Assembly (NCBI GenBank): GCA_947034885.2
Contig: OX344750.2
Coordinates: 43,076,821-43,140,820, forward strand
Length of the DNA stretch: 64,000 bases
Direction: 5' to 3'
Origin: Thuidium tamariscinum
Taxonomy: Eukaryota; Streptophyta; Bryopsida; Hypnales; Thuidiaceae
In this document: positions 1-61,416 of the stretch, in pieces
Layout of the letters: each line of letters opens with the position of its first letter
How positions within the stretch are numbered: the first letter of the stretch is position 1
Made by a program: the position numbers and the translations under genes
Notes under the pieces: model-generated
What the model was told of the DNA's origin: nothing
The model's input: only the letters and a program-made list of their open reading frames with translations
Databases searched by the model: none

Positions 1-4612
<4,612 letters not shown>

Positions 4613-4616
4613 TTAA

Positions 4617-4838: not shown

Positions 4839-4842
4839 TTAA

Positions 4843-28079: not shown

Positions 28080-28813
28080 GGGTAAATGCAAGAAACACTT
28101 GTACTATTTCCCGTCACCACCTAAGTGCTGATCTGTTTTTTGGCCACAAATTTTTCATTTTTGCTCGAAATGACTCAAGATTTCTAGAGAAGGTACTCAT
28201 AACTATCATATACTTTACATAATTTTTTCATAATTTTCAAAAATAATTTAATACTAAAATAGTACTAGTGATTAAATGTCACAAATGCCAATTTGGAGGT
28301 TTTTAGTACTAAGGAGTACCTTTTTTTAATGATTTTGAGATGAAATTTGGATGAGATGGTCTTCTAGTAGTTTTACATCACTCCACATGAGGGATTTTGA
28401 AAAAAGTTATTTTTATGTGGTGTGGAAGTCTACAAAGTGAGCTTCTTTCTGCTTGAATTTTGAAACATATAAAATATTATTTTGGTGGTTTTTTTGGTTG
28501 ATGACCGTCTCCATAGAGTTTTTGCAAATGGCCACTTTTAATTTTTTTGTATTTACTTATTTTTTCTATTTTTCCCGAATAAAAACATGAAGGTATGTAT
28601 TTTCTTGAGGTTTGGCACTTTTTAAATTCTCCTACTTAGAGAATTTTTCTATCAATTTTTTTCAGTGAAAACCTTCATCTTAGAGGTCTATACATTTTTC
28701 ATATTTTTCAAATTTTTTTCAAATTAATTTTCTAATTTTAAAGTACTCCAGAAAAAGTCATGAGTACTGTTGTAAAACGCAACAAATAGTATAGGTGTTT
28801 CTTGCATTCACCC
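28080..28813. mobile_element. Non-autonomous DNA transposon, family M4, copy 1 (4-bp TSD CATT)
   Basis: The ends are inverted repeats: GGGTAAATGCAAGAAACACT at the left and, reverse-complemented, GGGTGAATGCAAGAAACAC at the right. It is directly flanked by CATT on both sides (28076-28079 and 28814-28817). The interior (TACTAAAATAGTACTAGTG, AGTACTAAGGAGTACC and others) matches the copy at 47499-48199 in inverted orientation. There is no transposase. The 4-bp duplication recurs at all three copies in this window with a different sequence each time. Confidence 0.8.
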
Positions 28814-40487: not shown

Positions 40488-41244
40488 TGCAACTTCTTTT
40501 TACGAGAGACTAATTAAGTTTGGATTAGGCATGTTATAAACGATTTTGAAATTCATAAGTTACTCATACAAAATTCAAAAGCTCATTTCCAAAGAATCTA
40601 GAATCTTGTGTTCTAGTGGAAACACCCAAAACCATCCAAATAAGGAATTCAGTATAGTTCAAGGTAACTTTGCTAAAAATAATATTTTTCTAATATTAGC
40701 GGAGTGAAAATCATGAATACTAAAAAAAAACAGTTTCTAGTTCTCATATATAATTTCTATGATTTTCCAAAGTATTGGCTCCCTAAACCACTAGAATGAT
40801 TCAATGAATGCCACCAAATTTGAACACTGCTAAAATCAACAGTGAACCAATCAAATTTTGACACGTGCCCTCAATATTTGTTAGCGAATTAGAGTCAAAC
40901 ATTTGGCAAATACATTAATTACAGTCTAGGGACCGCTTTGGATGAGTCTAGGGTCCACTACAAGGTACAGGGACGGTTTTCTCCCTTACAAACATGATTG
41001 ACAATATTTTTTACAGGTCAATGGTATTTTACAATTCCAGGCAGTTGCGCAAATATTTCTAGGGCATGACGCGGCAGCAGATGAAGGACTGACGTGGCAA
41101 GGCTACGGGTCCGCTGGAAACCCTAAAAGGCTTGGAGACAGGATCGGGGGTGGCAAGCAAGAGCCGAGTCCCTCGAAAGCCCTTCCCACACAACTCTGGT
41201 CGTCCTCGTGCTCGCCTCCCTCATACCCCTGCCCAACCCCAAAC
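40488..41244. promoter_or_regulatory. Intergenic DNA and promoter of RGGA copy 1
   Basis: The first part is AT-rich. From about 41090 the DNA is GC-rich with a telobox, AAACCCTAAAAGG, at about 41119, roughly 390 bp upstream of the ATG. The perfect inverted repeat begins at 41245, so this promoter differs from that of copy 2. Confidence 0.5.
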
Positions 41245-41510
41245 CCTCTTTCTCTGTCGCTCTGTGTGGTGTTTTGGTTCCTTGTTCGATTGCGTTCTTC
41301 CTCCCGTCTTCGCTGCTGTTCCGCGTGCCTCGCGTCAGCCTCTTTCATGGGAGTGAGCTTGTTCCTGGGTCGCCATTCTTGGATTGGAGTCGCCCGGCCG
41401 CCGCTGCGATGGTGATGTGAGCTTTAGGTTCGACCGACTCCTGAGGGGATTTTGGTGGTGGGGACGTTTTTCCACGGGGCGCGGATCGGGCATCCGAGGC
41501 GCGAGCAGCC

Positions 41511-43780
41511 ATGGCGACGAAGAATTTCTTCGACTTGCTGGGGGACGACGAGAACGAGGACCCGGCGCAGGTGGTGGTGCGCGCGAATTCGCTCGCCGCC
41601 GCGGACGCGAAGCCGGCTTCTGGCGCCGCCAACGCGGCGACGAAGAAGCCGGCCGCGGCGGCCGCCAAGCTGCCGTCCAAGCCCGCCCCGCCATCGGAGG
41701 CTGGTACGTGTGTGTGTGTGTGTGGGATTGGCCGAGGAGGGTCGTGGCATTGGCTGGTCGGGGTCCCTCGGGGCGTGTCGCCATTGGCGTGGGAGTGTGT
41801 GGGTTGCGCGTCGGGGAGCTGGGTCGTGGCGAGTGGGGAGTGAGCGAGCGAGATTGTGCGCGTGGATTGCATGTCGGGTCGAGTTTTTGGCATGCGCGGA
41901 ATCGTGGCATTGGGCGTCGCGTGTCGTGTGCGATTGGTGTCGGCGTGGGAGTGCGTTCTGACTGTTTTTTTTGTTCGTTGTGTTCGTTCAGTGCGAGATG
42001 GTCCGCGGGGCCAGTATGATGGCTCTCGGGGCGGCCGCGGTGGTGGTCGCGGAGGACGTGGCGGTCGCGGTGACCGGGAAGGAGGTGGCCCCCGTGAGGG
42101 AGGAGGTTATAGAGAACGCGGCAGCTACAACAACGACCGCAATGTCGGCAGCACTCGCGACGCGGACGGTTTCGTGGGAGGTCGCGTTTCGCATGGCGAC
42201 AAGCCCGTGCGTATCGAGAACGGCGAAGGTCGTTCCTACGAGGGCGGTCGCAACAGAGGAGGTCGCGGTCGCGGATACGGCGAGGGTGACGAGCGCCCGC
42301 GCAGGCGCGAGTTTGACCGTCACAGCGGGAACCCTAGGGGGTGAGTTGCGGTCCCCATTTTGCGTGGTTTGGATTTGGTGCGTGCGTTTGATTTTCCGTG
42401 GGTTGTGGATTTTCTCTGGCGTGCTGCAAGGTCGTTCGTCTTTTCTGTTTGTGTTTTTCGGTGAGTGGAGTCCATTTGGTGCGCATAATCCTTGTGCTGA
42501 ATGTCCGAGCTCTTTTGCAGCAGGGCCTTGCATGAATGCGTGGCTGTGAATCGTATTTGAATTCCATTCTCTTACCTAGCGTCTTTCAGATATGAGACCG
42601 AAAAGAGAGCTGGTTCTGGCCGCGCTAACTGGGGAACGGACGTCGACCCAGCACTGATCCAGTAAGCCACACGGGGGGACCGACTCTGGAGTTCTGTGCT
42701 GTGATGGCTTCGGCTTTTTTCTGTGTGGAGTTGGCGGTCTTGTGCCTGCTGACCGTGTGTTCTTGGATTTTCAGGGAAACTGTAGAGGGCGTCAAGGAAG
42801 AGGAGAAGCCCGCCGTGGAAGGAGCCGCGGTCGACGAGAAGAAGCCCGAGCCCGAGCCGTCCGCGGAGGTGGCGGTGGAGGAAGGCGCAGCGGAGAAGAA
42901 GGAAGAGGACGAGGAGGACAATGTGAGGGCTCGTTTATTTCGTGTTCGACCGTCTTATGCGGGAGTTTGGACGGCAGTGTCGAGTCTGCGTTCTGGATGA
43001 TGAGGTGTCGCTTGTGAATGTGTGCAGGAGATGACTCTGGAGGAGTACGAGAAGGTATTGGAGGAGAAGCGCAAGAGCCTGGAAGCCGCCAAGGCCGCCG
43101 AGAGGAAGGTCGAGGTGGACAAGTCCTTCTCGAAGATGCAACTGGTGGACAACAAGAAGCGGGACGAGGACATCTTCATCAAGCTGGTGCGTGAACGAGG
43201 GATTTTGTTTGTATCTGAGGTTTTTTGTGTTTCTTGATGCGGGGTGCACGTTTCGTGGTTCGAGGCCTGGATTGTGGAGTCGCCGTTAATATGTGTGTTG
43301 TTTGCAGGGTCAGGACAAGGAGAAGGTGAAGAGGGAGGCCGCCGAAAGAGAGGAGAAGTCCCGCAAGGTAACGCTTGCGGGGTGCATTGTTTCGGGTTGT
43401 TTCCGAGGTTGCTCGATTTCGTGGGTCTCTTTTCGTTTTTTGCGTGCGTGAAGTGCAGTGCAGTGCGTCAGTTAGTGTGTGTGCTGAACTTGTTGCTGTT
43501 TGTGGTTGAGCAGCCCGTGAGCATCAACGAGTTCCTGAAGCCAGCCGAGGGTGAGAAGTACTACGGTCCTCCTTCGAACCGCGGTCGCGGAGGTCGCGGT
43601 GGTCGCGGCGACCGTCGTGAGGGTGGCGATCGCCGCGAAGGTGGTGGTCGCGGGGACCGTGAGTCGAGCCGCGGCGGTTTTGGCGGCGGTCGGTTCGGCG
43701 GCCGCGGCGGCGCTGGGGGAGGTGCATCGGCGCCGAAGATCGAGGACCAAGCGCAGTTCCCAACTTTGGGAGGCAAGTGA
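41511..43780 (+). CDS. RGGA: RGG-box RNA-binding protein, HABP4/SERBP1 family (RGGA-like), copy 1
   Basis: Cytoplasmic or ribosome-associated mRNA-binding protein. Exons: 41511-41703, 41992-42340, 42590-42661, 42775-42922, 43028-43186, 43308-43367 and 43514-43780, all GT/AG and in phase, giving 415 residues. The N-terminus MATKNFFDLLGDDENEDP is the Stm1-like start typical of plant RGGA proteins. A first RGG cluster occupies roughly residues 70-100. The HABP4/PAI-RBP1 core includes EFDRHSGNPRGYETEKRAGSG and NWGTDVD. A Glu/Lys-rich segment follows, then TLEEYEKVLEEKRK-SLEAAKAAERKVEVDK. A second RGG cluster and the terminal QFPTLGGK complete it. A (GT)n run lies at the start of intron 1. Arabidopsis RGGA is linked to stress tolerance and translation. 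A telobox upstream fits co-regulation with translation genes. Confidence 0.93.
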
Positions 43781-45452
43781 GCGAAGCTGTCCGACGGTGT
43801 GGGGGGAGGCAGCTGAGGATTTATGTGCAGGGAGGTGCCTGCAGTAATGACAAGCTGCCTGGGTTTGTTTAGGAAGTGTTTTGTCGATGTAACAAAGTGT
43901 AGTGTGGCAGGGTCCAGGAAGCTGCTGATAGATCACTTTAATCCTCTGTTTCTTATTTTTCTGCTTTTCTGCCAATCTGCCAGAGCCTCCCGGGTGTGGC
44001 CGAGGTGGATTTGCCAATCTTTAATGAGAAACTCCTTTTTAATGGTTAATTGTTAAGATGTGGTGTGGTCGGGGGGAGTGGCAATGGGGGCGACGTGATG
44101 GTTTTGAGTCCCCGGCGGGTGGGGTGGGGTTATGTAATGTAACGTTAGTGTAGGATGGGAGGGTGAACGTGACGTGCGCTTGTTAGGTCTGCTACTCCGT
44201 GTGGGGGATGGATGGATCGACCCCCATTTTCATTTGGAGGGTCAAGTGACGATCTTGGATCCTGGTGTTTCGATGAGATCGAATTGACTTGATGGATCTG
44301 ACCTGGACGTCAGTGTTCGTTTTTGCTATGTCGGTATGGACCGAAATGCCCTCGTAGCAATCGAGAATCGATCCTGGACGTTTGTTGAGAGTTTGATGAG
44401 AAGCAGGGACGATGGTTTCGGTTCCGCTTGACTGTGATCCGTGTGGTCGATCTGCTTGGATGTGGTGACGGTGGCGGTGTAAGGGACGGTTCTTGCTGAG
44501 GGCTTCTTGCTGTCGTAAGTTCGTGGGTTCTGAGAGCGGTTTTATAGCTTCGGAAGGCATATTCTTTCCCTTTTCCGGAGGCATCGAGTTCATTGCACAA
44601 TGGAAAGCTAGCGAGGTGCGAATCGCGGCGCGGGGAGGGTGAATACCCATCATGATAGAGGTGGATTGCTGTCGCAGATCCTGCTGATGAGTATGGGATG
44701 CAGGAAAGTGCAGCGGGGTCTGGTATTGCTCGGCAGCTTCCTGGTGAGTAACGTTTGGTATCGGGAAAGTAGATGCACGTGTCGGGATGTTCCGAAACGG
44801 CCTGGAATATTTGGTTACATGATGCTCTAGAAAAGTACTGGATTCCGATCCCCCCTTGACATTTCGTGAGGTCTGTGCACCACGTGAAACGTAGAGATTT
44901 CAGGTGGTGTTTGTGGGTGCACAGACCTTTGAATTCGTGCTGTCGGTCATGGCCATCTGGAGAATGGCACCGACACCAGCTGAATGGGTACAGGGGGGTA
45001 TCGCAATCTTAAATTCATTTGGAGGGAGTGTCCAGTGCTTCCCGAAATACGAAAGGAATGCAAGTTCCAACAGTTTGAAGAATTTGGAGCCACACCATTG
45101 GAGATAGTGGCAGATTGGGAAGGGGTCTGACGCCCTCCCCTTTCCCCTTCTGTCGCAGGCTTTGCTTTCGTTAGAATTTCGTTAACATGTTTGAAATGCT
45201 TGTTGTCTGAAGTCTTTGGAGATCTGGATAGAATGTCTTCACGTGTTCACTTCAACAGCATTGCAAGCTGCAAGGAGGGTGCAACAATGGGGATGCAAAA
45301 GGAAAGCCCAGATGATCAGTTACGTCTTTCAGGAGTGCTTACATCACCTTGGGAATCATGTAAACCCTAGAAGGATGCGGGGGTCCCTGTGGAAATCATC
45401 CCTTCTGAAACCGTGGGAATCATTGGCATTAGAAAAAGAAAAAGAAATCATT
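43781..45452. other. 3' region of RGGA copy 1
   Basis: Probable 3' UTR followed by non-coding DNA. The minus-strand ORF of 153 codons around 44192-44653 has no recognisable domain. The whole segment is duplicated exactly at 54983-56654. Confidence 0.45.
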
Positions 45453-45589
45453 TGAAGTCAAAGTATTGTAGAAGATCTTTACTTTCCACCCCTAATTTCG
45501 AGGATGAATAGTTGCATTTCTGTCCTATACAAGAGAATGCCTTGTCATTCATTTGACACTAAAAGTCCATAGTAGCAATCCCAGAACCC
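45453..45589. mobile_element. Diverged remnant of the piggyBac-like MITE
   Basis: GAAGTCAAAGTATTGTAGAAG and the following text match 4707-4838 of the intact copy with many substitutions, down to CCC near 45589. The left third of the element is missing. It predates the duplication, because the mirror arm carries the same remnant up to the breakpoint. Confidence 0.6.
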
Positions 45590-46391
45590 TTTTTTCTTGA
45601 ATTGCTGGAGGTCTATGACCGTGGTGGGTATGGAGCTTTATCCATGACCCCGAATTTCATTTGTAAAATTTGGATAATAAATTGACTTACAATTTGTTTG
45701 TATTTGTATATATGTATTTTTTTTTGTAGACTACCATTGGTGACACAATTGCTACTCAAATGGAAGACATAATGCTATATTTTATATATGTAAATGCTTA
45801 CAATTGCTAAGCACTTTAACGAAGTGTTGCATTCATGCAACTTTGTGTACAAGAAGTAAAAAAATTTGCAACTTTGTGTACAAAATTTTAATAAGACTTG
45901 CAACTTTGTGTGGAAGTAATATAATTTACAGATCCTAGCAGTGAATTCACATTACTATCTCTTTCTAAATGAAGAGAAATAAATACTGAAACTAAACTAA
46001 GTGCTACAATTCTAATGCATTGATTAGGGAATTGAACCCTCTATGACTGTCCAATTTGCAGTATCAATGTCCTACACACCACAAAACGTACAAACCACAT
46101 TAGAAAGTTAGTAAAAGAAAAGAACATGATGTCCTTTACGCCACGTTCCTGCCATTGTCCTCCACCAAGTTGCACAGTAAACTCCTGGAGTGAACTCCCT
46201 CAGCAGCTGCACCACTGCTGCTCCAAGTGACTTGTTGCCCACCGATAAGAACCAAGGCACCACCACTGGTCGTTGAAGCTTGAAGTCAAGTATAACTTGA
46301 ATGGAAGAGCTAGCTTAACCTCATGAAAACTAAAAAAAACAAGTAGCCTTGGAGGATACTGTTGCATGTCTTCTAGTCTGCTACAGCTACT
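45590..46391. other. Intergenic DNA between RGGA copy 1 and the hAT relic
   Basis: AT-rich. A short direct repeat, AACTTTGTGTACAA or a close variant, occurs about three times near 45838-45915. The 3' end of the hAT element should lie in here, but I could not identify its terminal inverted repeat. Confidence 0.35.
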
Positions 46392-47149
46392 TCAAATGTC
46401 CCCTTGCCGATCAGACTTCACAGCACTTTTCCAAGACTCAATTGCATCCTTGTAGGGAAAATTGTAAAGTGAAAAGTACCTTTGCCCAAACATGCGCACA
46501 ACAAGGGACAAATGCTTCCCTAATCTATTCCTTTGGCAAGATTTAAGGAATTTTAGAGTGGAAAAACATCTCTCATCTTCTACAGAGCCAAGAACAAGGC
46601 AGCAACCAATTTCAACAAGTTTGAAATATTCAGATATAAGCTTACTCAAATGCCGTGATTAGGAGAGCTTCCGCCAATGCTTCAGGACAGGGTTAATGTC
46701 GAAAGGGGGTCCACATGTTGCCTCAGAATTAGCCTTCATTGTGACCTTGAAAAGGCGTGCTTGGTTATCGAGATTGGACGTTGATAGCATCTCCGGGACA
46801 GTATACTGTTTGCCACCATCGGAGAAAGGCTGCCCTTTGTCAAGAACCTTGGCAACAGAATAGAAGTTCTTCAGAACCAGCAAGTGCTTTGCAAAACTCT
46901 CTTTAGCCCCCTCCTGGCGCCAGTACTGCAAGTAAATGATCCCGAAAGCGTCAAGGAGATCCTGTTGCAGGAACCTCCTATCAAGCTCATCACACAAACA
47001 TTGAGCAATCTCTGTAGTGTCAAGACAAGGGCTATTAGAAAATCAGCGGTTCATGTATTTGCATAAAGGACTATCAATTTGCACAATGACAAAGCCACTT
47101 AGAGCAACAACACTTTTGGCAAACAATTTAGAAGAGAAGAGATTAGGAA

Positions 47150-47335
47150 TAAGAAACTGAACCCATGAATCAGGCACCAAAAAGCCATGAATCAGCCACC
47201 ACAAACTGAACCCATGAATCAGCTTCAGAAACTGAACATATGAATCAGACACCACTCACACCACAAACTGAATCCATGAATCAGCTCCACAAACTGAACC
47301 TATGAATCAGACACCGCAGAGCTACCACAAAGCTA
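47150..47335. repeat. Minisatellite, units of about 23-45 bp
   Basis: Imperfect tandem copies of CACAAACTGAACCCATGAAT(CAG) and shortened forms, about six in 185 bp, inside the intron of the hAT relic. Confidence 0.75.
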
Positions 47336-47498
47336 GACCAAAAAAAAAATGGGCAGCTAATAAAACCATCACAAAGTCACCTTCAAGAAGGAAAAAAAAT
47401 GGGAAGCTTATAGAACCACCGCAGGAGTTGACAAATCCACCATAGGAACCGATTAAACCACCACAGGAGCTGAAAGACGATCAAAAAAATGGGGAACT

Positions 47499-48199
47499 CG
47501 GTGAATGCAAGAAACACTTGTACTATTTGTTGCGTTTGGCTGATTTTTTCGGGAGCACTTTAAAATTAAAAAAATAATTTTTAAAAAGTTTAAAAAATAA
47601 GACTAATGAAAAAACCTTTAAGATGAAGAAAACTACCGAAGGAAATTTGTTAAAAAAATCTCTAAGTAGGAGAACTTGAAAAGTGCCAAACCTCAAGAAA
47701 ATACATACTTTGATGTTTTTATTAGTAAAAAATAGAATAAAAATTGGCCATTTGCAAAAACTTTATAGAGATGGTTATTAATCAAAAAAATCACCAAAAT
47801 CACTTTTTACATGTTTCCAAAAAAATGTAGAAAGAGGCTCACTTTGTGGACTTGTACACCATGTAAAAATAACTTTTTTTGAAATCCCTTTGCATTAAAG
47901 CTAGAAGTCTACTAGAAGACCACTTCATCCAAATTTGAGCTCAAAATCATTAAAGAAAGGTACTCAATAGTACTAAAAACCTCCAAAATGGCATTTGTGA
48001 CATTCAATCACTAGTACTATTTAAATAGTAATTAATTTTTGAAAATTATGAAAAAATTACGCAAAGTGTATGATAGTCATCAGTACCTTTTCTAGAAATT
48101 TCGAATCATTTCAAGTTAAAATGCAAAAGTTATGGCCAAAAAATAGATCAGCACATGCCGTGTGACAGAAAATAGTACAAGTGTTTCTTGCATTCACCC
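47499..48199. mobile_element. Non-autonomous DNA transposon, family M4, copy 2 (4-bp TSD AACT)
   Basis: The left end CGGTGAATGCAAGAAACACT and the right end, reverse-complemented as GGGTGAATGCAAGAAACACT, form a terminal inverted repeat of about 28 bp. AACT flanks both sides (47495-47498 and 48200-48203). The interior matches 28080-28813 in the opposite orientation. It lies within the intron of the hAT relic. Confidence 0.82.
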
Positions 48200-50397
48200 A
48201 ACTGTAAAACCACCATACATCAGAAGACTAGCAGCAGCTTATCCACTTCTTCCTACCGAACCAGACAAACAACTACAGATCGGACTTCAAAGAACAGCCT
48301 CCTATCAAACTTTGCAAACCCACGCCATCAACCAAAACGAACTAAGAACTCGAAATACGACTCCCCAGCAAATTCAAACATGGCATTTGTAACCAACAAA
48401 AAACCCAAGTATTCACAAAATGACGTCAAAACTGCCGTTGTTGGATCACTGTTCCACAGTGACACTCCATTCGATCCTACTGCAATACTAAGGCACACAT
48501 GGCCAAAGATAAGTCTACAAATCATGTACTAAGTAATCATGTATTAAGTAATGCAAGGCACATACAAAAAAAAAGACATGAAGACAGATGGTGAACCACA
48601 ACTGAAATTCAAAAAACAAAGAAAAAGCAAAGAAAGGGAAGTGCAGAACTTCACCTGAAAACTGCCACTCTATGTTGTCCTGTAGTTGATGGAATTGCTC
48701 TTGGGTGACAAACAGGTGGTTACCTGTTTCTTTGTCATAGCATCTCGCATATATATGCAAGTGTTCGATTTCAAACAGTAGGTGGCAAATACCACTGTCT
48801 CCAGAAAGAGGACGCCACTGCATGGGGATATTGGCACAGGACAGAGATACTAGATCACTATAGCACTGAATATCGACCTTGTTATACGATGTGTTGCCGT
48901 TGAGGAACATTCTGGCAAGTTCTGCTTGGCATAACTTCAATGCCGACATGAAGTCACAAATGAAAATATCACGAGCCTGAGAAAGCTTGATCAAGGAATG
49001 AACACAGCCAATGAGAGAAGCAACTCAATGTCAGCCAACATGTCAAAGTTATCAGCAGCTCCAACAGTTGGTTTGTGTCCAGGAACGGCAGTCATATTGG
49101 CCCCCATCTTCACTAAGAGGGCCCGATATTCAGACAAAATTCGAGTAGCAGGACTTTTCATTGAAATCCAACGAGTTTCCACGTTTCTTACCATCGTGTT
49201 TCCTTTAGTTTCCATGAGATCAGCCAACCTCTGCAACTCAGCATGGTACTTGTTGCTTCAGCAGAAATAGGAGTAAACGGACTGAAACAGGTTCTCTAAC
49301 CGAGATACCATCGGGAATTTGGACATAGTCTCAACAACGAGATTCAAGCGATGAGACACATAACTAGCACCGATAAGATATGGCACCCATTTCTCATGAA
49401 TCTGGGTTGTAACTCTAGTTTTCAATCCCTGAAACGTGCTGACCCCGTCAGCGCCGAAACAAACCAATTTCGAAGCGATCTCCTTACGAGGCAAACCGCC
49501 CTCCCCAATCAGAGCATGCATAATGACGTCAGTTAAGTAGTCCGTAGTACCGCTCTCTACAATATACGATAGGTGCAAAAGGTGCGGTAGCCTCTCCCAA
49601 CTATCCATAGCATACACATGGACGCCCAACCAAGAGGTGTTGTCTTCGGTAGTAACATCATCAACGCTAATCGATATAATGTTCGCAGACTGAACAACCT
49701 GAAGAGAAGCCAGAACTGATGCATGCAAGTGCTCACTCATCTCCCATCCCGTACTCTCAGACCAGTGTTTGCGGGGGAGATGTTTTACCTTCAGCTGCTG
49801 AAGCAACTGTTGTTGACGTTTGTAGTCACACATTAGACGGCCATGTACAAGAATATGAAATAAGGTTGAGAATTGAACTCCCTTTTTCTTGACATCACCT
49901 TCCAAACCTCTAAGGAGTTGCTCAACGACAATGCTTGCCTGCTTTTGGCCGGCCCAAAGCTTGCACAGTTGCGTGTGCCTACAGTCACGCTTCATGAAGA
50001 CGTCGCCCTTCTTCAAGTGGGACTCAGGAACGCCATCTTCTTTGCAGGTCCGCTTGCCCTCATGTTTTTCCAAGTTGTCCAGTTTCGGCACCATGACTTT
50101 GCGCCTCCCAATAATACTCGTGCAACTGCGGCAGACTACTCCAACGACATCGCCTTCAGAATTGAACTCGCCTTCAACCCAGGCAAACTTACAAGCCCAT
50201 ACTTCTTGCCATCGGCGTGTGACAGTACTGGAACCAATCTTTGCCTTCTTGCGACCCGTTGTTGCCACCGATTTCGATCTCTTCGCTGCTGCCAAGTTCA
50301 TGTCGCCCTCGATTGTGTTGACAGCAATTGGAGATTGCATTGTCAATTCTGAAGGTGGGCAATCGTAAGTGGGAGGATGCAGCGCGGCCTCCTCCAA

Positions 50398-51517
50398 CTA
50401 CGTTTGAGACACATGGGTGAGGCTCGGAGTCATGTACTTGCCAATCCCGCTGGTATTTCGGCTAGAGTTGAAGGTTCTCACTCGAAAGATCTCTGGTAAT
50501 TTGAGTGGAGGCACCATGAGATCGACACCAAATCCTGTAGTCCTACGCCCACACACCCCATGCCAACAAATGCACAGCAGAGCAAAACCACACAAAATCG
50601 GAAGCAGATCAAGGAAATGGAAATCGAAGTACAATAGCACACCAGTACACCAGAACTCCACAAGCGCGTGTCGATCCTCACTCCTCAACAACAATGGCAA
50701 ATTGGAAAGCAGATCCAACACTTAAGAAACAAACAAGGCATGAACACAAAATGCAAAGAGAAGCTGAAACTCAAAGAGTGGCGGAAAGTGAAACCACCAT
50801 CGCTTAAATGTGCAATGTCGATTGCCAAAAGCTCCAAGGATCCGTTCTGTGACTTCTGTCACCGCCTCCAATTCTAATTCAAAAAGTATAGTGAATGCAA
50901 GAATCAGGAGATTGTCAAGGTTTGCAACCTTGAGTCCTCCAAATCTCTCAAATTCCACAGATATTTGGAAGTGGCATAGCGATGCAGTGCACCAAGTGCA
51001 CCTAATTCTCAAATTGGCGCTGTAGCATTGAAATTCAAGAATGCAGGTAATGCGGGAAACAATTTTTTTGAAAACCAGGATGATGACGAGAATCCAAGGC
51101 ACGGATCCCGAAGGTGGAGGACAAAAAAGAAGGGATGCGATGGCACCACGAAAGCAGGAATAGTAAATATGAAGCAAGTACTCGAAGGCAGGACTTAATG
51201 CGAAACTGTGATTGCAAATGGAGGGGGAAGATCCTAACCCCCCTCCCCAAACACTACAAATGAAAACCCTAAGCTCACAAACAACAGCCCTACGATCCAG
51301 CCGCCGGGCGAACTCATCGACGGTCACCGATGTGCCACGGCTCCCGGATGAAAAGGAATTTGCAGTTGTGCACTATTCGTCCAGTGGATGAATATCTGAA
51401 TCTGCAACATTCTGGGCAGTGATCCCGAAGATTTTGCTCAAAATCTATTTCCAGAAGACATTTTGACAATGTACATTTTGCACATGTCCCTGGAAGGTAG
51501 AAATCTGGCGCAATATA
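50398..51517. other. Upstream region of the hAT relic
   Basis: Balanced base composition and minus-strand ORFs of up to 201 codons without a recognisable domain. It is probably the 5' non-coding part of the hAT element and its flank. I could not locate the terminal inverted repeat or an 8-bp target duplication. Confidence 0.35.
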
Positions 51518-52252
51518 GGGTCATTGCAAGAAACGGTGGTCCTATTCTCCGTCACAATGGGAGTGACGTCATTCTTTTCTGCTATAACTTTTGAATAAAA
51601 ATATTCGAGAATATGAAATAATTATTGGACCTCTCTAACTTGATGGTTTTTACATCCCTTATTTTTCAGAAATTAAAAAAAATCATTTTATATTTAAAAT
51701 TAATTTTTGTTAATTCGTCACAAACTAAGGTTTAGGGGTTTTTACTACGTTAGGAGTACCCAAATTTAATGATCTAAAGTTGAAATTTTCATGGTTCATT
51801 TGCGTAGTAGCAAAGTATATTCCTACCAAAGAGAATCTAAAAATATATTATTTTATGTCCTCCACATGCATGTAAACAACACTCCAATTGCACGCAATTC
51901 TTGACCATTGACAATAGTACTAAGATTATTTTTTTGGTGAAATCTCATCACCATCAACTCTTCTCAAATGGCCAATTTTTAGATTTGAGAAAAAGAGCTT
52001 TTCCTATTTTTTACAAATTAAAATGTAATTATGTCCACTTTCATGAGATTTTCCACTTTTCTAGTTCTCTTACTTAGAGAATTTTCCTAACGTTTTCCTC
52101 CATAGGGTACCTTCTTCTTTAAGGTGTGTACATTGTACATATTTTTCATATTTTTTAAAAATTGTTTTTCTAATTAAATAGTACTCCTAAAGAAAAAGGG
52201 GGAGTACTATTGAAACGCTACGCTTTTTGAACGCCGTTTCTTGCAATGACCC
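51518..52252. mobile_element. Non-autonomous DNA transposon, family M4 subgroup, copy 3 (4-bp TSD TATA)
   Basis: The ends GGGTCATTGCAAGAAACGG and, reverse-complemented, GGGTCATTGCAAGAAACGG match exactly. TATA flanks both sides (51514-51517 and 52253-52256). Length (735 bp) and internal plan, with inverted AGTACT-type blocks near both subterminal regions, match the other two copies. The sequence is clearly diverged, so it is a separate subfamily. Confidence 0.82.
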
Positions 52253-52275
52253 TATAGCTAGTTTTGGAATCACTG

Positions 52276-52956
52276 GTCCATAGTGTCTTTCCTAGGATAA
52301 TCCGTAAGTTGTTTTGGATGTCTTTGAATATGTTTACAGAATGCCATAGGAGGTGTATACAACCTTGTTTAAGATTGATTTAAGTCTTTTGATTATGGTG
52401 TGTACTTCTTAATTGTATTGGACATGTTGCTAATTTCATAAATATTGTGAGGCTTCAGGCTCTTCAATTTTGAACTTTGCATACACATATATTGTAATGG
52501 AAGTACCTTGCTTGTTTTGCATTATTAAACAATGACCTTCATTTGCAAAAGGACACGGAACAAGATAAATTAATCAATATAGGTTTTGGTTAGTTTAGTA
52601 GGAAATAACCTTCACAACTAGTCATAAAACCTTGAAAAACCAAATTGCACATTCAGCTTCAAAAATACACCCATAAAATGATTTCAATCCCAAATTTCAT
52701 TAGATTCAACACAAGAATTGAGGGGGAGTGAAAACAAAGCAATGCTTCAACCTATTCATGTCATTAGATTCAACACAAGAATTGAGGGGTGAAAACAAAG
52801 TGGCGCTTCATCCTACTCATATTGTGGTCCTCAAATGCAGTACAACAATTGTAAGTGCAGGAAACCAATGTACTCAATCATTGGCAATGCATACACAAGA
52901 GACAAACATGTATACACAACGATCAAGTGGTGCTCGTATTTTCTAATGAAGACAAC
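52276..52956 (+). repeat. Inner inverted repeat S, left copy
   Basis: Imperfect reverse complement of 54182-54870, differing by scattered substitutions and small indels. This pair is therefore older than the RGGA arms. The homology begins at GTCCATA, which is also the last text of the RGGA arm at 54864-54870. Interior peptides are not conserved, so it is not coding. Confidence 0.75.
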
Positions 52957-54181
52957 CTTATAGAAATTTTTTTTAAATTTTTATTTTATTATTATTATTA
53001 TTATTTATTGTGATTGTTCCGATTATTGGGAGGAAGCCTAAAGCATTTTGCAAAACGCCCTTCTAATCCTTGAAAAAACATCTAATCCTATAGTTTACGA
53101 ACTTCATGTATAAGGCATTGCCATAAAAGGAAGGCATTTTACGATAGAAAGAACCAATGGGGATGGCGGAGCCCAATAAAGAGGCGTTTTATATTGCAAA
53201 ATGTCTATCAATAAGGGACACAACCAAATGTAAATCACAAGCAAGAAATTGGACTTGGATGAAGAAACAAAGTTGGATGAAGAATCCGTAATGTTGGATT
53301 ACACGGGCAGATTTTTTGAAAATGGTTTATGGTATAAACAATGACTTTTTTCACCAAGAACTTCTCAAGGACAATGGGAAAGACTTGGAAAGATCTTTTG
53401 ATCTTTATTTTGTCAATATGGATTTTGGACAAAGAGCATGGGTCAACTCTCGACTTTTATGACCTCATGTGAGTGTAATTCCAATGATTCCGTCAAAGAA
53501 GTGCTCCACGAAATTAGAAGAAGAAAATAAAGTCATAAAGAAAATTATTCCAACAAATGTCAATTGGATTTAGTACAAGATGAAAGATTTGTGCAACCTA
53601 GGACTTTCTAAGGTACAAAGTAACCTTGAGAAAATGTATGTAAAAATCTCAATCTAGTCCATTGAAAACCTTCATATCATAGTCCATAAAATGCAAAAAA
53701 ATTCAAACTCTTAGTATTATTAAATAATTGTGATCATTTAAAAGATTTTGTACTATTGTTTGTCTGATTCATAACATTGTTTTTATTTTCATCTTTATAC
53801 TTCCAATTTCAGTCCTGCTATGCTAAATTCAAAATCAAAAACTTTCTTTTCATTAGAATGTATTTGCTCATATCTTCCTCTTTATAGAACCAAAATGAAA
53901 ATGAAATTAGGTAAATAAAAACTTTTCCAACATTACTCTTCAAAAGTTGTGAAAATTACATTCAGAATTGAGTACTAATTGTTATTTTTTTGTCCACTAA
54001 GTTCAAACCTCTCACAAAACCTTATCCTCTATTATTTTCTTAGTAATAGTTCAAACAGTATAGATCAAAGCTTTAAATGTAAAATAAAATAAAATCTTCT
54101 AAAGAAAGCATATTGAGAATATATTATTGTTACCCAGAAATTGTGATAACCCTAGAATCAAAGCTTTACAATTATGTCGGA
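52957..54181. other. Spacer between the two S copies, with dispersed repeat copy 2
   Basis: An (ATT)n microsatellite lies at about 52981-53007. The stretch 53330-53640 resembles 14505-15000 (for example GACCTCATGTGAGTGTAATT), a second copy of that dispersed repeat. The rest is AT-rich with no gene. Confidence 0.5.
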
Positions 54182-54870
54182 GTTTGTCTTCATTAGACAA
54201 TACGAGCACCACTTGATCGTTGTGTATACATGTTTCTCTTGTATATGCATTGCCAATGATCGAGTACATTGGTTTCCTGCACTTATAGTTGTTGTACTGC
54301 ATTTGAGGACCACAATATGAGTAGGATGAAGCACCACTTTGTTTTCACCCCTCAATTCTTGTGTTGAATGTAATGACATGAGTAGGTTGAAGCATTGCTT
54401 TGTTTTCACTCCCGCTTAATTCTTGTGATGATTCTCATGAAATTTGAGATTGAAATCATTTTATGGGTGTCCTTTTGAAGCATCGCACTCTGAATGTGCA
54501 ATTTGGTTTCTCAAGGTTTCATGACTAGTTGTGAAGGTTATTTCCTACTAAACTAACCAAAACCTATATTAATTAATTTATCTTGTTCCGTGTCCTTTTG
54601 CAAATGAAGGTCATTGTTTAATAATGCAAAACAAGCAAGGTACTTCCATTACAATATATGTGTATGCAAAGTTCAAAATTGAAGAGCCTGAAGCCTCACA
54701 ATATTTATGAAATTAGCAACATGTCCAATACAATTAAGAAGTACACACCGTAATCAAAAGACTTAAATCAATCTTAAACAAGGTTGTATACACCTCCTAT
54801 GGCATTCTGAAAACATATTCAAAGACATCCAAAACAACTTACCGATTACCCTAGGAAAGACATTATGGAC
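54182..54870 (-). repeat. Inner inverted repeat S, right copy
   Basis: Mirror of 52276-52956 with moderate divergence. It joins the right RGGA arm directly at 54864-54870 through the shared heptamer GTCCATA (read on the minus strand). Confidence 0.75.
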
Positions 54871-54982
54871 TTTTAGTGTCAAATGAATGACAAGGCATTC
54901 TCTTGTATAGGACAGAAATGCAACTATTCATCCTCGAAATTAGGGGTGGAAAGTAAAGATCTTCTACAATACTTTGACTTCA

Positions 54983-56654
54983 AATGATTTCTTTTTCTTT
55001 TTCTAATGCCAATGATTCCCACGGTTTCAGAAGGGATGATTTCCACAGGGACCCCCGCATCCTTCTAGGGTTTACATGATTCCCAAGGTGATGTAAGCAC
55101 TCCTGAAAGACGTAACTGATCATCTGGGCTTTCCTTTTGCATCCCCATTGTTGCACCCTCCTTGCAGCTTGCAATGCTGTTGAAGTGAACACGTGAAGAC
55201 ATTCTATCCAGATCTCCAAAGACTTCAGACAACAAGCATTTCAAACATGTTAACGAAATTCTAACGAAAGCAAAGCCTGCGACAGAAGGGGAAAGGGGAG
55301 GGCGTCAGACCCCTTCCCAATCTGCCACTATCTCCAATGGTGTGGCTCCAAATTCTTCAAACTGTTGGAACTTGCATTCCTTTCGTATTTCGGGAAGCAC
55401 TGGACACTCCCTCCAAATGAATTTAAGATTGCGATACCCCCCTGTACCCATTCAGCTGGTGTCGGTGCCATTCTCCAGATGGCCATGACCGACAGCACGA
55501 ATTCAAAGGTCTGTGCACCCACAAACACCACCTGAAATCTCTACGTTTCACGTGGTGCACAGACCTCACGAAATGTCAAGGGGGGATCGGAATCCAGTAC
55601 TTTTCTAGAGCATCATGTAACCAAATATTCCAGGCCGTTTCGGAACATCCCGACACGTGCATCTACTTTCCCGATACCAAACGTTACTCACCAGGAAGCT
55701 GCCGAGCAATACCAGACCCCGCTGCACTTTCCTGCATCCCATACTCATCAGCAGGATCTGCGACAGCAATCCACCTCTATCATGATGGGTATTCACCCTC
55801 CCCGCGCCGCGATTCGCACCTCGCTAGCTTTCCATTGTGCAATGAACTCGATGCCTCCGGAAAAGGGAAAGAATATGCCTTCCGAAGCTATAAAACCGCT
55901 CTCAGAACCCACGAACTTACGACAGCAAGAAGCCCTCAGCAAGAACCGTCCCTTACACCGCCACCGTCACCACATCCAAGCAGATCGACCACACGGATCA
56001 CAGTCAAGCGGAACCGAAACCATCGTCCCTGCTTCTCATCAAACTCTCAACAAACGTCCAGGATCGATTCTCGATTGCTACGAGGGCATTTCGGTCCATA
56101 CCGACATAGCAAAAACGAACACTGACGTCCAGGTCAGATCCATCAAGTCAATTCGATCTCATCGAAACACCAGGATCCAAGATCGTCACTTGACCCTCCA
56201 AATGAAAATGGGGGTCGATCCATCCATCCCCCACACGGAGTAGCAGACCTAACAAGCGCACGTCACGTTCACCCTCCCATCCTACACTAACGTTACATTA
56301 CATAACCCCACCCCACCCGCCGGGGACTCAAAACCATCACGTCGCCCCCATTGCCACTCCCCCCGACCACACCACATCTTAACAATTAACCATTAAAAAG
56401 GAGTTTCTCATTAAAGATTGGCAAATCCACCTCGGCCACACCCGGGAGGCTCTGGCAGATTGGCAGAAAAGCAGAAAAATAAGAAACAGAGGATTAAAGT
56501 GATCTATCAGCAGCTTCCTGGACCCTGCCACACTACACTTTGTTACATCGACAAAACACTTCCTAAACAAACCCAGGCAGCTTGTCATTACTGCAGGCAC
56601 CTCCCTGCACATAAATCCTCAGCTGCCTCCCCCCACACCGTCGGACAGCTTCGC
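54983..56654. other. 3' region of RGGA copy 2
   Basis: Mirror of 43781-45452: probable 3' UTR plus non-coding DNA, without a supported gene. Confidence 0.45.
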
Positions 56655-58924
56655 TCACTTGCCTCCCAAAGTTGGGAACTGCGCTTGGTCCTCGATCTTC
56701 GGCGCCGATGCACCTCCCCCAGCGCCGCCGCGGCCGCCGAACCGACCGCCGCCAAAACCGCCGCGGCTCGACTCACGGTCCCCGCGACCACCACCTTCGC
56801 GGCGATCGCCACCCTCACGACGGTCGCCGCGACCACCGCGACCTCCGCGACCGCGGTTCGAAGGAGGACCGTAGTACTTCTCACCCTCGGCTGGCTTCAG
56901 GAACTCGTTGATGCTCACGGGCTGCTCAACCACAAACAGCAACAAGTTCAGCACACACACTAACTGACGCACTGCACTGCACTTCACGCACGCAAAAAAC
57001 GAAAAGAGACCCACGAAATCGAGCAACCTCGGAAACAACCCGAAACAATGCACCCCGCAAGCGTTACCTTGCGGGACTTCTCCTCTCTTTCGGCGGCCTC
57101 CCTCTTCACCTTCTCCTTGTCCTGACCCTGCAAACAACACACATATTAACGGCGACTCCACAATCCAGGCCTCGAACCACGAAACGTGCACCCCGCATCA
57201 AGAAACACAAAAAACCTCAGATACAAACAAAATCCCTCGTTCACGCACCAGCTTGATGAAGATGTCCTCGTCCCGCTTCTTGTTGTCCACCAGTTGCATC
57301 TTCGAGAAGGACTTGTCCACCTCGACCTTCCTCTCGGCGGCCTTGGCGGCTTCCAGGCTCTTGCGCTTCTCCTCCAATACCTTCTCGTACTCCTCCAGAG
57401 TCATCTCCTGCACACATTCACAAGCGACACCTCATCATCCAGAACGCAGACTCGACACTGCCGTCCAAACTCCCGCATAAGACGGTCGAACACGAAATAA
57501 ACGAGCCCTCACATTGTCCTCCTCGTCCTCTTCCTTCTTCTCCGCTGCGCCTTCCTCCACCGCCACCTCCGCGGACGGCTCGGGCTCGGGCTTCTTCTCG
57601 TCGACCGCGGCTCCTTCCACGGCGGGCTTCTCCTCTTCCTTGACGCCCTCTACAGTTTCCCTGAAAATCCAAGAACACACGGTCAGCAGGCACAAGACCG
57701 CCAACTCCACACAGAAAAAAGCCGAAGCCATCACAGCACAGAACTCCAGAGTCGGTCCCCCCGTGTGGCTTACTGGATCAGTGCTGGGTCGACGTCCGTT
57801 CCCCAGTTAGCGCGGCCAGAACCAGCTCTCTTTTCGGTCTCATATCTGAAAGACGCTAGGTAAGAGAATGGAATTCAAATACGATTCACAGCCACGCATT
57901 CATGCAAGGCCCTGCTGCAAAAGAGCTCGGACATTCAGCACAAGGATTATGCGCACCAAATGGACTCCACTCACCGAAAAACACAAACAGAAAAGACGAA
58001 CGACCTTGCAGCACGCCAGAGAAAATCCACAACCCACGGAAAATCAAACGCACGCACCAAATCCAAACCACGCAAAATGGGGACCGCAACTCACCCCCTA
58101 GGGTTCCCGCTGTGACGGTCAAACTCGCGCCTGCGCGGGCGCTCGTCACCCTCGCCGTATCCGCGACCGCGACCTCCTCTGTTGCGACCGCCCTCGTAGG
58201 AACGACCTTCGCCGTTCTCGATACGCACGGGCTTGTCGCCATGCGAAACGCGACCTCCCACGAAACCGTCCGCGTCGCGAGTGCTGCCGACATTGCGGTC
58301 GTTGTTGTAGCTGCCGCGTTCTCTATAACCTCCTCCCTCACGGGGGCCACCTCCTTCCCGGTCACCGCGACCGCCACGTCCTCCGCGACCACCACCGCGG
58401 CCGCCCCGAGAGCCATCATACTGGCCCCGCGGACCATCTCGCACTGAACGAACACAACGAACAAAAAAAACAGTCAGAACGCACTCCCACGCCGACACCA
58501 ATCGCACACGACACGCGACGCCCAATGCCACGATTCCGCGCATGCCAAAAACTCGACCCGACATGCAATCCACGCGCACAATCTCGCTCGCTCACTCCCC
58601 ACTCGCCACGACCCAGCTCCCCGACGCGCAACCCACACACTCCCACGCCAATGGCGACACGCCCCGAGGGACCCCGACCAGCCAATGCCACGACCCTCCT
58701 CGGCCAATCCCACACACACACACACACGTACCAGCCTCCGATGGCGGGGCGGGCTTGGACGGCAGCTTGGCGGCCGCCGCGGCCGGCTTCTTCGTCGCCG
58801 CGTTGGCGGCGCCAGAAGCCGGCTTCGCGTCCGCGGCGGCGAGCGAATTCGCGCGCACCACCACCTGCGCCGGGTCCTCGTTCTCGTCGTCCCCCAGCAA
58901 GTCGAAGAAATTCTTCGTCGCCAT
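56655..58924 (-). CDS. RGGA: RGG-box RNA-binding protein, HABP4/SERBP1 family (RGGA-like), copy 2
   Basis: Same protein as copy 1 (415 residues, identical translation), on the minus strand. Exons: 58924-58732, 58443-58095, 57845-57774, 57660-57513, 57407-57249, 57127-57068 and 56921-56655. Introns are also identical to copy 1. The two genes converge, with the hAT relic and the S repeats between them. The sequence more than 266 bp upstream of the ATG differs from copy 1, so the two genes have different promoters and could differ in expression. A telobox (AAACCCTAAAACG) lies about 390 bp upstream, at the same distance as in copy 1. Confidence 0.93.
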
Positions 58925-59190
58925 GGCTGCTCGCGCCTCGGATGCCCGATCCGCGCCCCGTGGAAAAACGTCCCCACCACCAAAATCCCCTCAGGAGTCG
59001 GTCGAACCTAAAGCTCACATCACCATCGCAGCGGCGGCCGGGCGACTCCAATCCAAGAATGGCGACCCAGGAACAAGCTCACTCCCATGAAAGAGGCTGA
59101 CGCGAGGCACGCGGAACAGCAGCGAAGACGGGAGGAAGAACGCAATCGAACAAGGAACCAAAACACCACACAGAGCGACAGAGAAAGAGG

Positions 59191-59335
59191 AAATAGTCTG
59201 TGTTCGAAACGAGGTTGGGCGATGGAAAGCGAAATGAGGAAGACGAGGAGAAGCGGGGGTGAAAGGGAGCGAGCAAAGAGGCACCAGGTCCTTTCCCCTA
59301 CCGCTCAAGCGTTTTAGGGTTTGGAGCTTATCCCT
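59191..59335 (-). promoter_or_regulatory. Promoter of RGGA copy 2
   Basis: GC-rich region with the telobox read as AAACCCTAAAACGCTTG on the minus strand (about 59307-59323). It is only loosely alignable to the copy 1 promoter, for example AAACCCTAAAA(G/C)GCTTG in both. Confidence 0.5.
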
Positions 59336-61190
59336 AGCATTGCCATGTCATCGTCTTTGCCCACTCTTCTTTCGTCTTCGGCCTTGTCATGACCTAGAAA
59401 TCTAAGCGGTACTGACGTCAGGGAGGGCTGACCTGAGATTTACTGAACGTCTCCAGTCGAGTCTCTTCAGTCTCATCCCAGCGAGTCTCTTCCGGTTGAA
59501 TCTCATCCATCTCATCCATTTGAGTCTCATCCAACCCTTTTTTTTAACTTTTGGAGAAGGTGCCAAGATGGTGATCACTTCAAATTTGGTGAAGCATCAT
59601 ATTTCTTAATTCATTTGTCTTTTGGACTTCAATAACATTTTTCCATCATATTCATTTACTTTGTCATCCAAATGAGGCAACTTCATCCGTATTTTAAATT
59701 GAACTAGAAAATTTCTGGTGAAACAAGATTACTTTTATTCATAAAAAAAAGACATCTATTTTGAAATGGTGCAATTTGGCCTCAATGATGGTCAATTTTG
59801 TTTAAATGGCGGTATTCCGAGTGCCATTTTGACATATTCCATGTGCCATTTTGACATAGAAGCTTAGTGGTAGAGGAAGAAAATGTGCCATTTTAACGGA
59901 ATGTCATGCCATTTTATTGAAGTATCACCATTTTAACGAAATTGACCATAATGGTGCTGAAATAGAAAGGATTGATCTCATATGTGAAGTCTCATTTCAC
60001 TTGTAGTGGTTTGATTTTGGGAAAAGAATTTCCCTAGTTTCCAATTAAGTTTGTCTACTTTCTTTCTAACTTTTGGAAACATATGATTTTCTAAATTATT
60101 TGTACACCTATTAGGGGTAGTTAGACTTCTTCTAAGAAACCTATTTCTTTGAAGTTTGAGAAATCAACAGAGAAAAAGAATAGCTAATTGCAAGTGTTTT
60201 TGCCTGAAGGAAGCGTAACCCTACTTTTTGCTATTGAAAGCAATTCTTGAAGAATTCTTGATCTTTTAAGCTTGATGGGAGCTCTACAACTCACACTCAA
60301 CCAACCATTTAAGAAAATTCCTGGAGAAATTTCCCATAAGTGTTGTTTCTTTACCTTAAGAAGTGAAGAAACAACTCTCTTATTTTTCAAAGAAACAGCC
60401 TTGAGTAGGAATGTGATAGATGAATGTACAAGTTGGGTGTGATTGTTATAGCTTGCATACTTTTAAGGGTGGAAGTAAATTCTTAAAGTAAAAATTATAG
60501 TAGTTGATCTACCATGTATGGAAAATAACAATTCTAATACAATGTTTAGTATTATATTATATTGAAAATCTCTTTATTTGCATTATTTTGAAGAATCAAA
60601 ATTTATTAGTGAATGCATTTTTGTATGTACCTACAACATAACATGTACAAAATACAAGATGTTTTTAGAATATATACAAAATTGACAATTTGAATGTTTA
60701 AAGTTGGAGAGGCTTAAATGTTAGTATAGGATTGCAATTAGAGAGGATTGACTCTAATGGACTGGACATTATCATTTATGGTGTGTAGCTTGAGAATGTC
60801 AATATGTAAGTGGAGAATTATAACCAAAGAGGTTAGGATTTACAAGATGTTCTGAGTCCTTTGGAAAAGACAAATTAGGTTTGTGCATATTGAAGAGTGA
60901 ATGATTTTTATTTTGTTTTTGGTGGACAACTTAAATGATGCTCCCCTACATAATTGAGTAAAGTTCAAGATAGACATTTTAGTTACTTTTAGATTTTATA
61001 TAGGGATAGCTCATTAAAAGAATGATATATTATCTAGCGTATTTCATCATTTTGATTTTTATATTCAAAATGATCTATTTTTCTTTTAGAAAAATCTAAT
61101 TGAATTTAGTTTTTGAAGTGGAGTTTCTTCTATACTTGAAAATTTTGAAGAACTTCTTAAAACAAGCATTCTATTGAAGTTTGAAGTTAA
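59336..61190. other. AT-rich intergenic DNA
   Basis: No gene is supported. Repeated short text GTCTCATCC-type lies near 59470-59540, and TTGCAATTAGAGAGGATTG lies at 60732-60750. Confidence 0.4.
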
Positions 61191-61412
61191 TCCTTGAAGG
61201 ACAGATTGGTGGCTGCACAAACCATGCATTTTGATACCATGTGACATCACCTACTTTGAAAAAGCCAAATATATGCATTGGAAGTCAAAGTATTGTACAA
61301 GATCTTGCCTAACCTCTCCCAATATCGAGGATGAAAAGTTGTATTTTTGTCTTGGAAGGAAAGATTCTTTGTCATTCAGTGGACGCCAAACGTCTGTAGC
61401 GTCGTTCAAGGG
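61191..61412. mobile_element. 222-bp piggyBac-like MITE, copy 2 (TTAA target duplication)
   Basis: Same length and orientation as 4617-4838 and roughly 85-90% alike by eye. TTAA flanks both sides (61187-61190 and 61413-61416). The left end is TCCTTGAAGGACA and the right end CGTCGTTCAAGGG. Confidence 0.75.
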
Positions 61413-61416
61413 TTAA

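Follow-up and report, generated by a model that had tools for sequence, protein, structure and literature searches.

Recent ectopic gene conversion as the probable source of identical arms in an old inverted pair of RGGA-type genes of the moss Thuidium tamariscinum

An inverted repeat in the genome of Thuidium tamariscinum carries two convergent genes for RGGA-type proteins on arms that match base for base, and it raises the question of whether such arms are as young as they look. The initial annotation of the window, by which we mean the whole stretch of 64,000 nucleotides analysed here, read the identity of the non-coding DNA as a sign that either the duplication or its last homogenisation was very recent, or that the assembly had gone wrong at one locus. 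Our analysis retains a very recent last homogenisation and abandons a very recent duplication, since the identical core has diverged homologous sequence at either end. We conclude, with a probability of about 0.87, that the genes form an old inverted pair whose identical zone arose by recent ectopic gene conversion, as judged from one genome with no outgroup. The core and the genes within it are the following.

41245..45571, plus strand: left core arm, 4,327 bp; same sequence as 54864-59190 in reverse complement (100% identity)
54864..59190, minus strand: right core arm, 4,327 bp, from sequence comparison
41511..43780, plus strand: RGGA-type gene, left copy, 415 aa, 7 exons, intact, with Pfam domains HABP4_PAI-RBP1 and Stm1_N
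41511-41703, 41992-42340, 42590-42661, 42775-42922, 43028-43186, 43308-43367 and 43514-43780, plus strand: coding exons of the left copy, from the gene reading
56655..58924, minus strand: RGGA-type gene, right copy, 415 aa, exons at mirrored coordinates, intact

In the assembly the core arms (41245-45571 against 59190-54864) agree at 4,327 of 4,327 bases without an indel, exactly as had been claimed. A genome search for full-length matches to the core gave only these two arms among the matches listed (40 of 3,726 candidates scored). The core comprises 1,248 bp of coding sequence, 1,022 bp of introns, 266 bp upstream of the ATG and 1,791 bp downstream of the stop codon, and there are 0 differences between the arms in any of these classes, which bears out the earlier remark that introns and 3' sequence are as identical as exons. 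Non-coding positions are thus homogenised equally with coding ones, as ectopic gene conversion predicts. A degenerate repeat at 45363-45571, inside the core, also lacks any difference between the arms. Scans of the 64,000-nt window for Rfam families and tRNAs gave no match.

The two complete, convergent RGGA genes of the initial annotation are confirmed: both have GT..AG introns and intact 415-aa frames. The protein has the domains of RGGA / SERBP1 / Stm1-type RNA-binding proteins, with both Pfam hits above the cut-off (HABP4_PAI-RBP1, E 4.7e-22; Stm1_N, E 7.2e-20). A protein search of the genome detected these two loci and no third one; it was used instead of a PF04774 family search, which gave no match for the genome and was silent for the controls too; the probable reason is that several exons share the domain. 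Among the literature matches listed for RGGA/Stm1, none reports RGGA genes of mosses. Antisense transcripts and small RNAs from the convergent pair are possible.

On the inner side, the repeat does not end where its perfect identity ends. A transposon breaks into the left arm at that point, and the arms resume beyond it.

45573..52275, no strand assigned: hAT-type transposon of 6,703 bp, an insertion within the left arm; a sibling copy lies on C5
45565..45572, plus strand: left target-site duplication GTCCATAG, from empty-site alignment
52276..52283, plus strand: right target-site duplication GTCCATAG, from empty-site alignment
49258..50397, minus strand: open piece of the transposase, 379 aa, from the reading frame
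about 47500-48200 and 51518-52252, no strand assigned: nested repeats within the hAT element, from repeat comparison
52284..52958, plus strand: inner segment of the left arm past the hAT element, from sequence alignment
54181..54862, minus strand: inner segment of the right arm, aligned to 52284-52958
52959..54180, no strand assigned: centre of the inverted repeat, 1,222 bp

The right arm, which lacks the insertion, preserves the empty site, reading GTCCATAA at 54870-54863, and the alignment of the arms continues across the element once the 8-bp duplication is removed. The element starts one base beyond the inner edge of the identical core. Its ends are confirmed by the sibling on C5, which has an 8-bp duplication of its own, TTGCCCAC, at either end, so that both copies examined (2 of 2) carry a duplication of this length. 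The terminal inverted repeats are short and imperfect (TAGCAATCCCAGAA / CAGTGATTCCAAAA in the copy at this locus and CAACGATCCCCAAA / CAGTGATCCCAAAA in the C5 copy; about 9 and 11 of 14 positions by eye). DNA transposons of the hAT superfamily make 8-bp target duplications and have short terminal inverted repeats, and our copies resemble them in both respects; they differ in that Pfam backs the transposase weakly. At a threshold of E 10, one of four transposase pieces matches Dimer_Tnp_hAT below the cut-off (E 0.18, 12.1 bits versus 21.4), at E 0.01 none of five pieces matches, and the 379-aa piece has no match in Pfam or PDB. Among 942 candidates in the genome, the same piece has at least 108 scored matches, one of them being itself. 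The family is abundant, and many of its members have long open transposase frames. The transposase region of the present copy is broken by a nested repeat and by stops.

Past the element, the inner segments align at 96.3% identity, with 649 identities, 24 mismatches and 11 gap columns that come from one 9-bp and one 2-bp indel; for the comparison with the core, 25 substitutions in 674 sites are counted (3.7% diverged). The mismatches are unevenly spread, 5 of 334 near the hAT element versus 19 of 333 farther in (p 0.003). No homology between the two halves of the centre was detected by alignment of 52959-54180. While the 4,327-bp identity of the initial annotation stands, the repeat is thus not over at 45571/54864 and runs on for about 0.68 kb at 96.3%; likewise, the mirror axis that had been put at 50217.5 is a product of the 6.7-kb insertion, and the homologous inner ends centre near 53,570. 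We also considered 52276-54870 as a 2.6-kb element with long terminal inverted repeats, given the 0.69-kb match of its ends. This reading was rejected: a genome search found just two full copies, and the matching ends coincide exactly with the stretch over which the arms continue past the empty site.

Outside the core, a second pair of diverged homologous segments lies in front of the genes.

41042..41134, plus strand: left promoter segment, homologous to 59414-59306, with telobox AAACCCTA at 41118
59306..59414, minus strand: right promoter segment, homologous to 41042-41134, with telobox at 59315-59322

These segments align with 71 identities, 22 mismatches and 16 gap columns, that is 71 of 93 aligned bases or 76%, and their teloboxes sit at matching distances outside the arms (127 bp and 132 bp). 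The local score of 31 exceeds the best of 1,010 comparisons with real sequence from the window (16) and the best of 5,000 Markov shuffles (17). With the 250 bp adjoining the arm as the query, 0 of the 1,010 controls reach the score; a 1-kb query is invalid as a control because it contains transposon sequence, and 20 of 194 controls then equal or exceed the score. Searched for as an exact pattern, the promoter module has two occurrences in 363 Mb of genome, both at these RGGA genes. Outer homology past about 200 bp (alignments extend to 2.2 kb) is not claimed, as the scoring is too lax: that part scores 257, barely above 200 shuffles (max 255, mean 207).

Taken from the outside inwards, the copies thus show a promoter alike at 76% of 93 bases, a core with 0 differences in 4,327, an inner flank diverged by 3.7% and an unrelated centre. 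An identical tract with homologous, diverged sequence on both sides is what interlocus gene conversion leaves, and it argues that the middle 4.3 kb of an old gene pair was overwritten recently. The rate of the inner segment predicts about 156 differences for the core, and none is observed; substitutions in the core (0 of 4,327) and in the contiguous inner segment (25 of 674) differ with a Fisher p of about 1e-22. A core edge placed at random on an arm of about 5 kb would come as close to the hAT element as one mean mismatch spacing in about 1% of cases. The original inverted duplication probably spanned about 5 kb per arm plus the promoter, with the genes convergent.

The identical zone probably formed when a broken or stalled arm was repaired by copying the opposite one. 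Copying would have halted where homology ended, at the diverged promoter on the outside and at the hAT heterology on the inside, and the outcome would be two different promoters driving identical proteins. More tentatively, recurrent conversion could have maintained likeness along the entire arm up to the insertion of the hAT element, which would since have shielded the inner 0.68 kb and let differences build up there. A single release date for all of the inner segment does not fit the uneven spread of its mismatches. Moreover, promoters and inner flank are of unequal age (76% against 96%), so that either the inner flank was converted at an earlier time or the promoter evolves faster. Most of the conversion-tract estimates in a review (PMC3924818) lie between 50 and several hundred bp. 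As one tract, 4.3 kb is long, so that long-tract repair or several events would be needed.

A single, very recent inverted duplication that made both arms together would account for the absence of differences in 4,327 bp, introns and 3' flank included. It is contradicted by the older divergence flanking the core (25 of 674 and two indels on the inner side, 71 of 93 with gaps at the promoters), because one age cannot yield the values of core, inner flank and promoter together, and we hold it to be very improbable. Nor do these flanking matches look like chance or transposon repeats, which the two-copy genome counts and the promoter-score controls oppose. Extreme purifying selection on the two intact copies is scarcely credible as the cause, as 1,022 bp of introns and 1,791 bp of 3' flank, with the repeat at 45363-45571, match as fully as the exons; selection at the protein level is thus not what keeps the arms identical.

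The exactness of the identity is suspicious in itself, and truly different arms might have been collapsed or mirrored during assembly or polishing. Such an artefact would have to mimic a tract bounded on the outside by a diverged homologous promoter and stopping, on the inside, a base short of a hAT element with a perfect target duplication, edges that make biological sense. It would also have spared the equally inverted 96% inner flank, kept separate in the same assembly, and the genome lies in 19 contigs, which hints at long-read data able to span arms of 5 kb. We consider an artefact improbable, though somewhat less so than a single recent duplication.

Within the conversion reading, a special form would make the element the trigger: a break made by hAT transposase at the outer end of the element, repaired from the other arm, would leave a single long tract of 4.3 kb that runs from the element to one side only. 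Transposon-induced homologous recombination in plants was reportedly described by Athma and Peterson in 1991 and by Xiao and Peterson in 2000. This form is favoured by the position of the tract's inner edge, a single base away from the element, and by the abundance of the family with its many long open frames, but the same edge is expected of a mere barrier, and the element is still in place with its transposase region split. We regard the trigger as possible but unlikely. Slightly more doubtful is that the element was both wall and starter, the break at its outer end having set off a single 4.3-kb copying event and the DNA behind it having been freed permanently from concerted evolution. If true, the locus would offer a natural experiment open to dating, with a single transposon having switched the flank of a duplicated gene from concerted to independent evolution.

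Conversion as the maker of the identical core has known parallels. In the palindromes of mammalian sex chromosomes and of the willow W chromosome (PMC7023750), the arms are kept alike by arm-to-arm gene conversion; they share with our locus gene-bearing inverted repeats and alike arms, and in willow also conversion confined to part of the arms. Our arms differ from both in their much smaller size (5 kb), in the visible transposon that limits conversion and in being known from one genome without an outgroup. For tandemly arrayed genes of Physcomitrella, concerted evolution by gene conversion is suggested in PMC3045890, citing Lang et al. 2008; there too, moss gene copies of high similarity lie next to one another, while our locus shows where the tract ends, how the promoters have diverged and which insertion blocks it. 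The HMA4 cluster of Arabidopsis halleri (PMC3749932) has coding regions homogenised by ectopic conversion and promoters that behave differently, as at our locus, although HMA4 is a tandem triplication with population data and ours an inverted pair in one genome.

The locus is a clean new case of an already known process, ectopic gene conversion. It warns that arm identity misleads as a clock, since the arms look newborn and the pair is old, and it gives an unusually clear single-locus view of the limits of homogenisation, a diverged promoter outside and a transposon inside. In the plant, one and the same RGGA protein is thereby encoded twice, each time behind a different promoter, and the genome search detected no further gene of this kind. 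Finally, the locus makes the release of paralogues from concerted evolution by insertions testable through resequencing of relatives.

The two arms of the inverted repeat are alike at 4,327 of 4,327 bases with 0 gaps in a self-comparison of the window (41245–45571 versus 59190–54864), and the left string equals the reverse-complemented right one when they are compared directly, so the indel-free 4.3-kb inverted duplication reported in the initial annotation is borne out. Its two complete convergent RGGA genes also hold up: the left gene has seven coding exons with GT..AG introns and 1,248 bp including the stop, encoding 415 aa, and the right one, translated from mirrored coordinates, is intact and likewise gives a 415-aa protein. 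Since the product matches the Pfam domains HABP4_PAI-RBP1 (E 4.7e-22) and Stm1_N (E 7.2e-20), its sequence places it in the RGGA/SERBP1 type. An exon-by-exon protein search of the genome gave 12 matches from 14 candidates, 12/12 of them within these two genes; it found no third RGGA locus, and a strongly diverged relative could escape it.

The genome searched comprises 363,211,507 bases in 19 contigs, with the window at C2:43076821–43140820; one contig (C9) measures exactly 24,900,000 bases, an oddly round size that may reflect assembly or trimming. A PsaD piece from this genome, assembled by eye out of two frames, has as its best single PDB matches 8htu_D, 7ksq_D and 6l35_D (311, 301 and 296 bits), which are Physcomitrium patens entries, and a moss origin is therefore probable; 9vfj_D ranks above them only through three repeated domains scoring about 165 bits each. 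Three moss genomes are described with 11 pseudomolecules (PMC11503002, PMC11992514, PMC11803377), and contigs C1–C11 occur among the results here. Among the matches listed (best 40 of 3,726 candidates), the only full-length ones to the arm are the two copies here, and the remaining 42 of 44 are short fragments of a repeat family within the arm's last ∼220 bases. Toward the repeat centre, the identical core ends (45363–45571 and its mirror 55072–54864) in a degenerate member of this family, which occurs at no fewer than 38 other genome places with 81–87% identity, and further members lie in the window:

4606–4842 and 61180–61416, members of the core-end repeat family, ends TTAAYCCTTGAA / TTCAAGGGTTAA

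The first difference between the arms is base 45572 (G left, A right), and a transposon stands directly behind it in the left arm:

45573–52275, hAT element, 6,703 bp
45565–45572 and 52276–52283, its target duplication GTCCATAG, flanking the element

The right arm has the empty site GTCCATAA. Transposons of the hAT superfamily are recognised by a target duplication of 8 bp together with short terminal repeats, and on these sequence features the element is classed as hAT-type, with weak Pfam support for its transposase. A sibling on contig C5 is 90–93% identical to most of its body, two nested repeats excepted, and has related terminal repeats at its ends and another 8-bp word, TTGCCCAC, on both flanks. 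The family is large, since a 379-aa piece has at least 108 scored genome matches, many within long open frames; for 49258–50397, six places elsewhere score alike (E 5.2e-165) in a 736-aa open frame, which suggests a recently active relative. Of the nested repeats, both missing from the C5 copy, the short element at 51518–52252 has GGGTCATTGCAAGAAACGG terminal repeats and at least 38 other genome copies at 97–99% identity, and so spread recently; that at 47500–48200, with related terminal repeats GGTGAATGCAAGAAACAC, is ∼80% identical to 28078–28812 of the window.

With the hAT and one copy of the target duplication omitted, the left arm continues in an inner segment, where 52284–52958 aligns to 54862–54181 with 649 identities, 24 mismatches and two indels (9 and 2 bp), or, counting the junction G/A, 25 substitutions at 674 sites (3.7%, Jukes-Cantor 0.038). 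The halves of the 1.2-kb centre (52959–54180) have no detectable homology (score 15 versus a mean of 14.4 and a maximum of 26 in 300 shuffles). A genome search with the inner segment gave 15 matches, of which only the two copies here are full-length, so the segment seems not to be a common repeat; the others are partial at 72–77% or short, at 82–100%, and confined to query bases 1–60, where the query overlaps the core and its repeat. Divergence is uneven, 5/334 sites beside the hAT versus 19/333 farther in (p 0.003), and the segment therefore has a history of its own, perhaps with an older partial conversion behind the unevenness. Within it, 52397–52574 is a 178-bp stretch without any difference, possibly a second, older conversion tract.

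At the outer edge, on the promoter side, the upstream regions still align (41042–41134 versus 59414–59306; 71 identities, 22 mismatches, 16 gap columns), with a score of 31 versus maxima of 16 in 1,010 real-window comparisons and 17 in 5,000 Markov shuffles; a laxer alignment reaches 41040–41244 (129 identities, 58 mismatches, 34 gap columns). Both promoters carry the telobox AAACCCTA, located 127 and 132 bp beyond the arm edge. Their shared module pattern has two genome occurrences, both in these promoters, and its reversed control 0; as the pattern was derived from the two, the informative part is the absence of a third site. Genome searches with each promoter region returned the self-match only, missing the other promoter, and are thus insensitive to matches this diverged. 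Clusters of mutually similar inverted repeats at 6489–7828 and 39206–40474 are probably one mobile-element family, and the latter, adjoining the left promoter, may limit how far outer homology can be traced. Elsewhere in the window, 10542–13384 is a near-perfect palindrome (99.5%, arms of 1,409 bp, spacer ∼25 bp) with mirrored reading frames (228 and 216 aa); its outer ∼360 bp have 217 diverged genome matches, several in mirrored pairs among those listed, which probably makes it a mobile element of the fold-back type.

Contiguous homologous DNA thus passes through zones of ∼76%, 100%, 96% and no identity. One duplication of a single age cannot account for these values: 0 of 4,327 core sites differ versus 25 of 674 inner sites (Fisher p near 1e-22); about 156 core differences are expected at the inner rate. 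Nor can selection on the protein explain the identity, given that the 1,022 bp of intron and the 1,791 bp past the stop are equally unchanged, in agreement with the earlier remark that introns and intergenic 3' sequence are as identical as exons. Residual assembly collapse of the arms may be another, less likely, source of the identity. Ectopic gene conversion, acting recently between the arms, best explains the zones, and of the earlier alternatives, a very recent duplication or last homogenisation, they retain the homogenisation and not the duplication.

Conversion would have ended where homology was no longer good enough, at the diverged promoter outside and the hAT insertion inside. The hAT was probably already present when the core was converted, since a random inner edge on a ∼5-kb arm falls within one mean mismatch spacing of it only ∼1% of the time; it may have been either a barrier only or also a trigger. 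Core divergence has a 95% upper bound of 0.00069. Taking about 9e-9 per site per year as the neutral rate in mosses, the two copies of the inner segment would have separated ∼2 million years ago and those of the core less than ∼40,000 years ago, figures that are only indicative. The 4,327-bp core is long relative to usual tract estimates, given in one source as 50 to several hundred bp (PMC3924818), which points to several conversion events or to repair by a long-tract route. In yeast, recombination of inverted repeats by a replication-stall route is described, and in half of the recombinants the intervening sequence is inverted (PMC8748988).

Conversion has been proposed between neighbouring similar genes in Physcomitrella (PMC3045890), like the arm pair here, and reported for palindrome arms of the willow W chromosome (PMC7023750), like these inverted arms; at HMA4 of Arabidopsis halleri, coding regions are known to undergo ectopic conversion while their promoters take another course (PMC3749932). 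Our literature search found no paper on this locus among those listed, though one may exist. The locus is a further case of this known kind of ectopic conversion, with unusually clear borders.
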